A stretch of 64,000 nt of DNA. Origin: Agarivorans aestuarii. Its GTDB lineage: Bacteria > Pseudomonadota > Gammaproteobacteria > Enterobacterales > Celerinatantimonadaceae. Positions within the stretch are counted from its first letter, which is position 1. Every line of letters starts with the position of its first letter. The notes under the pieces were generated by a model, which saw only the letters and a program-made list of their open reading frames with translations, ran no database searches and was not told the origin of the DNA. The position numbers and the translations under genes are program-made. Of this stretch, positions 30,057 through 31,433 are shown piece by piece. The stretch spans positions 2,035,001 through 2,099,000 of the forward strand of contig NZ_AP023033.1 of the NCBI RefSeq assembly GCF_019670125.1, written 5' to 3'.

Positions 30057-30082
30057 AAAAAGCAGCCATGGGCTGCTTTTTT
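30057..30082 (+). terminator. Terminator after ybiT
   Basis: AAAAAGCAGCC / GGCTGCTTTTTT with an ATG loop. Its T-run abuts the end of the neighbouring attC-like site. Confidence 0.88.
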
Positions 30083-30133
30083 GTTGCCCAAAGCAAGGAC
30101 GCACGAAGGGCTAACTGCCTTTTATTGTTAAGT
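30076..30133 (-). repeat. attC-like site at the end of the 109-residue-protein cassette (R' degenerate)
   Basis: On the minus strand the R'' box ACTTAAC (30127-30133) contains the gene's stop codon. It is followed by L'' GTTAGCCC (30108-30115) and L' GGGCAAC (30083-30089), which pair with one unpaired A, the extrahelical base typical of attC. The expected R' (GTTRRRY) is missing; the sequence runs into the ybiT terminator, so this is probably the outer edge of the cluster. Confidence 0.6.
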
Positions 30134-30457
30134 GGATTTTCGCTGAACATAGATAAGTGTTCCTGTTACTAAGCTGGTTATGCTTGCCACAATAATAAAG
30201 GCCATAGGCATGAATAACAGGTTTTCACTAGCGTGAAGCCACCTTGGTAAATCAATGCTAAGTGCTAAAACTCCTATTGCAAAGGGTGCTATTAGAGTTA
30301 CTAAGAAGCCAAAAAAACAGGCAAACTTGTGACGATATAACGTACCGGTTTTCTTGAGAAGATAAACCTCTCCAAATATGGCCAGTATGATGGGAGGTAG
30401 ATACCATACAACCATCAGTATGGCTAATTCAACGGGTAGTATGTAGTTATCTTCCAT
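30128..30457 (-). CDS. Small membrane protein in an integron-like cassette
   Basis: The gene encodes 109 residues with three predicted transmembrane helices (about 8-29, 45-68, 80-103) and a basic C-terminus. No family recognised. The ATG sits 3 bases after an attC R' box and the stop codon lies in the next R'' box, so the gene fills its cassette from end to end. No Shine-Dalgarno is visible, as is common in cassettes. The cassette's leading TTAAGT is the complement of its trailing R'' ACTTAA, which fits excision as a circle. Function unknown. Confidence 0.65.
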   Translation of the reverse strand: MEDNYILPVELAILMVVWYLPPIILAIFGEVYLLKKTGTLYRHKFACFFGFLVTLIAPFAIGVLALSIDLPRWLHASENLLFMPMAFIIVASITSLVTGTLIYVQRKST

Positions 30458-30459
30458 AC

Positions 30460-30547
30460 ACTTAACGCTTTAGTTAATGGGCATCTTTACGTGTATTGAT
30501 GGGAAGCACCAGCGCAATAATGTCCTTCATTGAACTATTTGTTAGCT
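30460..30547 (-). repeat. Integron attC site between two cassettes
   Basis: The minus strand reads R'' AGCTAAC (30541-30547), L'' TTCAATG, a central loop, L' CATTAA, then TAAAGC and R' GTTAAGT (30460-30466), 88 bases in all. L'' and L' pair with a single bulged C, the extrahelical base needed for integrase recognition. The right arm TTAACTAAAGCGTTAAG closely resembles the aadA-type attC right arm TTAACTCAAGCGTTAGA. Confidence 0.78.
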
Positions 30548-31056
30548 TTTTCATAATACCGATTAAAAACTTGAACACCTTTTTGGCTTTTGAAGAAGTA
30601 AAAGTAAAAAGCAATTGGGAGAACACCAATCATAAAGGCTAGCCAATTAACAAGCTCACTATTGTTAGGAATTACAAAAACTCTAACGAGCATTAGTGAT
30701 GCATATGAACCTGAGAACATAAGAGCTGTGTTCCTTGCCCAGATATCGCTAAAAATGTGCATTAACAGCTTATAATTTTTCGTAAGAGAAACAGATACAA
30801 TTAAAATTAAAAAAACTAAAGATTCTAGCTTGCCACTAAGTACATAAATGATGCTTAGCATTGGTATGAAGAAATAGAAAAATAAGATATCCATATACTT
30901 CTTCTTTGCGATTTTCTTTTTGAATCCTTCAGGATCAATATGCTTTTCTATTTCTTCACTTCCCGCAGTTGCAGAACATCCACATGAACTGCAATTGCTT
31001 AAATGAGGTTCATTCCCCATACCGCATGCATTGCAAGTCCACCTATACCCAACCAT
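30535..31056 (-). CDS. Zinc-ribbon membrane protein in an integron-like cassette
   Basis: The protein has 173 residues from an ATG at 31056 with AAAGGA upstream; a longer form from 31086 would begin inside the recombination box. The N-terminus is a small zinc ribbon, CNACG and CSSCG with 14 residues between (both Cys-x2-Cys), then a basic stretch (KKKIAKKKYM) and four transmembrane helices (about 57-80, 85-100, 108-128, 132-152). Zinc-ribbon/membrane proteins of this sort have no fixed function. Its last codons (GCT AAC AAA TAG) overlap the attC R'' box. It is AT-richer than neighbouring core genes, consistent with acquisition. Confidence 0.65.
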   Translation of the reverse strand: MVGYRWTCNACGMGNEPHLSNCSSCGCSATAGSEEIEKHIDPEGFKKKIAKKKYMDILFFYFFIPMLSIIYVLSGKLESLVFLILIVSVSLTKNYKLLMHIFSDIWARNTALMFSGSYASLMLVRVFVIPNNSELVNWLAFMIGVLPIAFYFYFFKSQKGVQVFNRYYEKANK

Positions 31057-31077
31057 AAACTCGAATTCCTTTGAAAA

Positions 31078-31121
31078 AGCTAACATTTATATATTGCGCA
31101 TGCGCGTTTACCTTGTTAGAC
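31078..31121 (-). repeat. Possible attC remnant at the front of the zinc-ribbon cassette
   Basis: On the minus strand GTCTAAC (31115-31121, fits RYYYAAC) precedes an inner GCGCATGCGC palindrome and GTTAGCT (31078-31084). GTTAGCT is the exact complement of the zinc-ribbon cassette's own trailing AGCTAAC, as expected for a cassette boundary. At 44 bases it is shorter than a normal attC, so it may be truncated. Confidence 0.45.
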
Positions 31122-31433
31122 CAGTAAAAACGCGCATAGCTAATTATTTGAATTTAATGAAGAAACAAGAATAAGGCTCAATACGCTTTCTGGCAAAGCG
31201 CGCATGCACAGTTAATAAACCTATTATCTAATTCAACACTAAGCTAAGTGCTTGATACTACGCTTGTATTTTTTACAGCTCAAGGCTAAACGCGCACAAT
31301 CTATCTAATTTATTAGCTCTAAAACGCTAAAACTAAATAATGCTGTGTATAGCCAGTAAATGGCCGGTGTTACGTTGCTGGTGATTTTGCCTGTAACTGG
31401 GTCGGATAGAGAGATTTAGTTATGTGAGGCAAA
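31122..31433. other. Gene-free AT-rich stretch upstream of the cassette pair
   Basis: There are no convincing ORFs, and no intI gene. Several GCGC-containing words recur (CGCGCATAGC near 31131, GCGCGCATGCAC near 31199, AACGCGCAC near 31289), and TGCGCGTTTAC at 31101 is inverted relative to GTAAAAACGCGCA at 31124. It may be the decayed remains of another cassette or an insertion point. Confidence 0.35.

Follow-up and report, generated by a model that had tools for sequence, protein, structure and literature searches.

A probable orphan integron platform between purB and ybiT of Agarivorans aestuarii: an attI without an integrase gene, carrying two cassettes

Clusters of gene cassettes without an integrase gene are commonly regarded as degraded or stray integron fragments. 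A cluster of this kind, the CALIN, is defined by attC sites together with the absence of intI, which under the default setting of IntegronFinder 2 means at least two attC without intI, and attI sites outside class 1 go undetected by this program (PMC9024848). CALINs and single cassettes are reported to be frequent in Shewanella (PMC9229058). The site described here lies in a 64,000-nucleotide stretch of Agarivorans aestuarii DNA (the window), and it resembles the CALINs and single cassettes in having attC cassettes without intI nearby, but differs from them in that window-type sites are headed by a conserved attI with a control region. It shares with the sedentary chromosomal integrons the attI, a candidate cassette promoter (Pc), a LexA-type operator and the cassettes, whereas here no intI is present at the site and many sites occur per genome instead of one array. 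The integrons of Xanthomonas are alike in that their cassettes outlive the lost intI and CALINs recur beside the same genes, although their description, in the sections available, mentions no attI copy (PMC12444791). Insertion at attG likewise places cassettes outside an integron, but the target here is an attI and not a short non-canonical site.

While cassettes without an integrase are known as CALINs or from integrons, the dispersed attI copies heading them appear to be the new aspect; a literature search, with most subscription journals outside its coverage, returned no report of such copies. Based on the comparisons below, we propose, with a probability of roughly 0.8, that the site is an orphan integron platform, namely an integrase-less attI that was loaded in trans and holds two cassettes. 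If many cassette clusters are headed by a true attI and promoter, they would be capture and expression platforms, with one integrase serving many loci. In that case the origin of the CALINs and single cassettes of Shewanella and its relatives would become directly testable, and such platforms would escape integron software that does not consider attI beyond class 1.

The cassette site between purB and ybiT

The purB gene, on the minus strand, is followed downstream by two small genes and then by the convergent ybiT. The attC evidence relies on R2, a covariance model built from 22 attC sites of other arrays with the window site excluded; 4 of the 22 come from the 1.79-Mb array of the window's own genome, and 81.5% of the cells of the training alignment are paired vs 66.1% in shuffles. 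The features of the site are as follows.

30057-30081: inverted repeat behind ybiT, seen in the sequence
30088..30133, minus strand: terminal attC, incomplete, with its R'' side present, next to the inverted repeat behind ybiT; no R2 match
30127..30465, minus strand: gene cassette B as far as the trailing R'' box, from the GTTAAGT start to the ACTTAAC end; right end uncertain
30128..30457, minus strand: gene B, hydrophobic hypothetical protein of 109 aa
30460..30547, minus strand: attC of cassette A, 88 bp; R2 covariance match, 21.1 bits, E 0.022
30466..31083, minus strand: gene cassette A, from the attI crossover to the G of the attC R' box, with 14-bp complementary ends
30535..31056, minus strand: gene A, hypothetical protein of 173 aa with an N-terminal zinc-ribbon-like motif and hydrophobic stretches
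31084..31231, minus strand: orphan type 1 attI, with the crossover lying between 31084 and 31083
31255..31283, minus strand: candidate cassette promoter TTGAGC-N17-TAGTAT, conserved among the copies of the genus
31343..31356, minus strand: decayed motif resembling a LexA operator, at which the control region starts; it aligns with the LexA box of intI-linked copies

Cassette A has the makeup of a gene cassette, a single ORF between complementary core sites with an attC, and cassette B lacks a complete attC. The two cassettes without an integrase that a first-pass annotation recognized from the sequence alone are supported, as both genes have cassette boundaries, and the terminal attC of the second is incomplete; with one complete and one incomplete attC, the site also falls outside the default CALIN definition of IntegronFinder 2. 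The trailing R'' box of each cassette is indeed the complement of its own leading core, and for cassette A the complementary stretch reaches 14 bp (30540-30553 and 31072-31085). The 88-bp attC-like site at 30460-30547, described earlier with its boxes and extrahelical C, is likewise present in the sequence, and R2 placed its best window match at the same coordinates (30547-30460 on the minus strand, full length, exact ends, E-value for 64 kb), the sole other window match at E<=10 being one of 33 bp and 15.7 bits. A covariance model therefore does find an attC, the lack of which was to have counted against the cassettes.

The terminal attC of cassette B gave no R2 match in the window scan, an Rfam search had no match at the cassette site, and the window attC is missing from the 19 whole-genome R2 matches at E<=1. 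When folded with RNA parameters the arms of the window attC pair (-16.2 kcal/mol, computed without shuffle comparison), and its fold as single-stranded DNA does not surpass that of shuffled sequences (z +0.69 on the minus and +1.00 on the plus strand). Owing to the modest R2 score and this DNA fold, the window attC is weak and may be inefficient as a site.

Relatives of gene A were found between attC sites in the own genome (at 1797470) and in G006, with 53% and 54% identity, and, with 36% identity, among attC-like sites in G005, and gene A is itself a cassette gene. The two closest relatives start at a methionine matching position 31056, 27 nt past the crossover, and since they align from there, 31056 is most likely the start of gene A, in place of the 31086 initially assigned. 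Both genes had also been thought to end inside an R'' box, which is correct for ORF B, while ORF A passes its R'' box and stops one codon later. Gene A showed a RanBP zinc-ribbon match below the cut-off and, in NCBIfam, only a sub-threshold TcaA match. Gene B belongs to no family in Pfam or NCBIfam and had no relative in the loci or plasmid sequences searched, and neither protein matched the plasmids. Within gene A lies a 15-bp perfect inverted repeat (window 30867-30958) with 62 nt between its arms.

The interval between purB and ybiT was compared in 12 genomes of the family, four of which (the own genome G000 and G001, G003 and G006) have the same attI and flank. In all four, the sequence is conserved from purB as far as the G|TT in the first core box. 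Past this crossover each genome carries differing cassettes, with no nucleotide match to those of the others, and these extend to the inverted repeat that lies behind ybiT. The final 147 bp of conserved sequence share 88% identity with a stretch beside a complete, divergent intI in G006. The conserved stretch thus has its sequence in common with the site of a cognate IntI and ends at the crossover, and it is identified by this comparison as an attI with its crossover at G|TT. The other 8 genomes gave no ybiT match within the 3.2-3.4 kb fetched at purB, and 5 of them, outside the genus, say little, as the nucleotide search is insensitive there and missed purB in G011.

An empty purB-ybiT site, sought in the related genomes as first suggested, was not found, and three sister species carry other cassettes, instead of the same two genes occurring at the locus throughout the genus. 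Nor does the notion of a stray cassette cluster in a core region hold, because the cassettes begin at a conserved attI with a control region, and this attI is common to four species at the locus and repeated elsewhere in the genomes. The low attC score and the weak DNA fold would suit two ordinary genes with chance attC-like repeats, but the exact boundaries at a conserved attI, the relatives of gene A in other arrays and the replacement of the cassettes in sister species make such a coincidence scarcely credible.

Dispersed attI copies and the cassettes behind them

A sequence model of the type 1 attI (R1, from 21 copies including that of the window) had matches in 6 of the 12 family genomes, with strong copies numbering 2 in G000, 3 in G001, 1 in G003 and 4 in G006, and none in G002, G004 and G005. 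Another genus of the order showed an R1 match in 51 of 60 genomes. This genus appears to be Shewanella: among 47 attI-core stretches from named genomes, 42 belong to Shewanella, four to Enterovibrio MAGs and one to Vibrio injensis. Per-genome R1 counts overstate the copies, as weak opposite-strand matches to an internal palindrome are included. From the strongest of the matches listed, 60 strong type-1 copies were picked, 54 of them from six Shewanella-type genomes and 6 from the window's genus, each with a left flank of about 2 kb and a right flank of at least 3 kb. An attC match accompanies 54 of these copies (the other 6 had none in the flank searched), and all 101 attC matches, one of which is an R2 training site, lie on the crossover side and in cassette orientation.

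A second, unrelated attI sequence shows the same dispersal. Another conserved stretch is followed downstream by an orphan type-1 attI in G006 and by a different attI, type A, in G000, G001 and G003; the type A copy of G000 shares 95% identity with the attI that adjoins the IntI of G001. Type A matches occur in 7 of 7 genus genomes, and about 10 are distinct in the window's genome, two of which (928075 and 1148796) stop short of the crossover end. Among the 30 copies resolved as loci by the type A search and taken with equal 1.5-kb flanks, 23 have attC matches, all 34 of which lie on the crossover side (3 being R2 training sites), and 7 have none in the flank searched. Around the copies of both types, attC matches were therefore found solely on the crossover side of attI. 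Of the 12 attI copies in the own genome, 8 have attC matches at most 7 kb downstream, and these account for 15 of the 19 matches, vs a mean of 0.17 and a maximum of 4 in 20,000 random draws, although matches within one array are not independent and 3 of the 19 are R2 training sites; the remaining 4 are not behind any attI copy.

Cassette insertion outside integrons has been described (cited in PMC12444791), and the cassettes of the window could in principle have entered by chance at a non-canonical genomic site, an attG. However, such a site is neither attC nor attI, whereas the target here is an attI of the kind found beside integrases, and attC matches cluster behind attI copies, so that we regard an attG event as very improbable. 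The presence in related bacteria of many stray attI, each with different genes, suggests that one gene-capture system can span a whole genome.

Integrases, control regions and the origin of the platforms

In agreement with the first-pass annotation no intI is present beside the two cassettes, so that the window site lacks the intI that adjoins attI in a complete integron. The search for an intI elsewhere in the genome, which that annotation had advised, detected no IntI above the cut-off and only a C-terminal remnant, and the two full-length recombinase matches examined are XerD and XerC. This remnant covers 72 C-terminal residues and is about 1.16 Mb distant (G000:C1:3228584-3228799, in L001 and L031). 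It lies directly behind an IS110-family transposase fragment and adjoins the gene next to which sister species have intact integrases. With no intact integrase left in the strain, the window cassettes are probably frozen.

In a tree of 45 integrase loci, made by a quick method with long branches flagged, strong type-1 attI stand beside 8 integrases, all within one clade of 10 members (SH-aLRT 95), of which 2 have no attI match; five further loci outside the clade have weak matches. The second attI type stands beside a clade of 4 (SH-aLRT 100), and across these loci the attI type follows the IntI clade. A matching IntI adjoins 4 of the 60 strong copies, one per genome (G232, G305 with its start missing, G323 and G006). 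No IntI match at E<=1e-30 was obtained in nine Shewanella-type genomes that have at least 6 R1 matches, and therefore many of the attI platforms may be relics.

The candidate Pc agrees with the consensus at 8 of 12 positions and has a conserved hexamer pair, and it is absent, being below threshold, from the promoter-scan list. The right half of a LexA box, ATACAGT, lies 255-278 bp before the crossover in 48 of 60 attI copies. The full box, CTGT-N8-ACAG, is found in 6 of 7 intI-linked copies, in 2 of 56 orphans and in 0 of the 4 purB-locus copies, and the motif of the window is not intact, a pattern that would follow from decay of the operator once intI is lost. Two of the four purB-locus species have one altered operator half (CTGG) in common. 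While the attI core common to the copies measures about 145-148 bp, the upstream heads shared by orphan copies are longer with each other than with intI-linked copies, reaching to about -280 in the window's genus and often to -390 to -700 in Shewanella.

Based on these findings, the platform would comprise the decayed LexA operator, the candidate Pc and the attI, without intI. An IntI from the matching clade, with its gene elsewhere in the genome or in an ancestor, would recombine the hairpins of cassette attC sites with this attI at the G|TT; cassettes would thereby be captured in trans at many such attI sites, and could be expressed from Pc. Insertion by an IntI acting in trans is likely, because an intI-less control region is common to four species with differing cassettes, and because in G232 a 331-bp first cassette is found with 100% identity at three places, the intI-linked attI and two orphan ones. 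Since the attI parts at these G232 loci are also 99-100% identical, a copied block of attI plus cassette is the alternative for this case.

A complete integron between purB and ybiT could instead have lost its intI by deletion, leaving its cassettes frozen, with the other copies as remnants of separate integrons. Such a history agrees with the operator remnant at the expected place, with the lack of an intact IntI in the own genome and with the usual reading of CALINs as degraded integrons (PMC9024848), but it is doubtful in view of the four species that have an intI-less control region and dissimilar cassettes, two of them with the CTGG half. The common region, the dissimilar cassettes and the common operator half together indicate that intI was seemingly lost before the cassettes changed. 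Moreover, the paralogous orphans have common upstream heads that are absent from intI-linked copies, which points to copying of an intI-less unit.

The proposed platform could accordingly belong to a larger arrangement, for which we see about even chances, with the integron as a distributed system. Roughly a dozen attI platforms would then be scattered over the chromosome, each having a control region and cassettes of its own, and a single integrase would serve them in trans, the unit of attI and control region itself spreading to new loci as a small mobile or gene-converted element. Alternatively, a dispersed promoter or MITE-like repeat could have been adopted as attI by integrases, so that the dispersal would belong to the repeat and not to the integron. 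The many copies, the heads common to orphans and a block of attI plus first cassette that is 100% identical between G232 loci would fit a repeat, which we nevertheless consider rather unlikely, as the attI type tracks the IntI clade, intact LexA boxes occur chiefly in the company of intI, and the two attI sequences dispersed in this way are unrelated.

Empty sites were also sought across the genus with the left flanks of two other attI copies, and no clean one was found; one of these loci has the second attI type in three sister genomes, and the right flank of the other was unmatched. Because no empty site matched, neither an insertion boundary nor a target duplication was obtained.

Several further features were seen around the dispersed copies. 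The 331-bp first cassette, 96-100% identical to its L141 copy, occurs at seven attI copies in two Shewanella-type genomes, to the right of the attI junction (L141, L142, L144, L146, L171, L172 and L176), the intI-linked copy included. The left edge of the conserved attI bears a palindrome, TAGATAATAGG-AA-CCTATTATCTA (L068), and direct repeats about 190-400 bp in size lie upstream of attI in Shewanella-type orphan heads, for example in L162 and L145. To the right of attI in L171, L172 and L192 are tyrosine-recombinase-like ORFs, about 30% identical to IntI, which adjoin a transposase-like ORF and possibly belong to an insertion element near integron sites.
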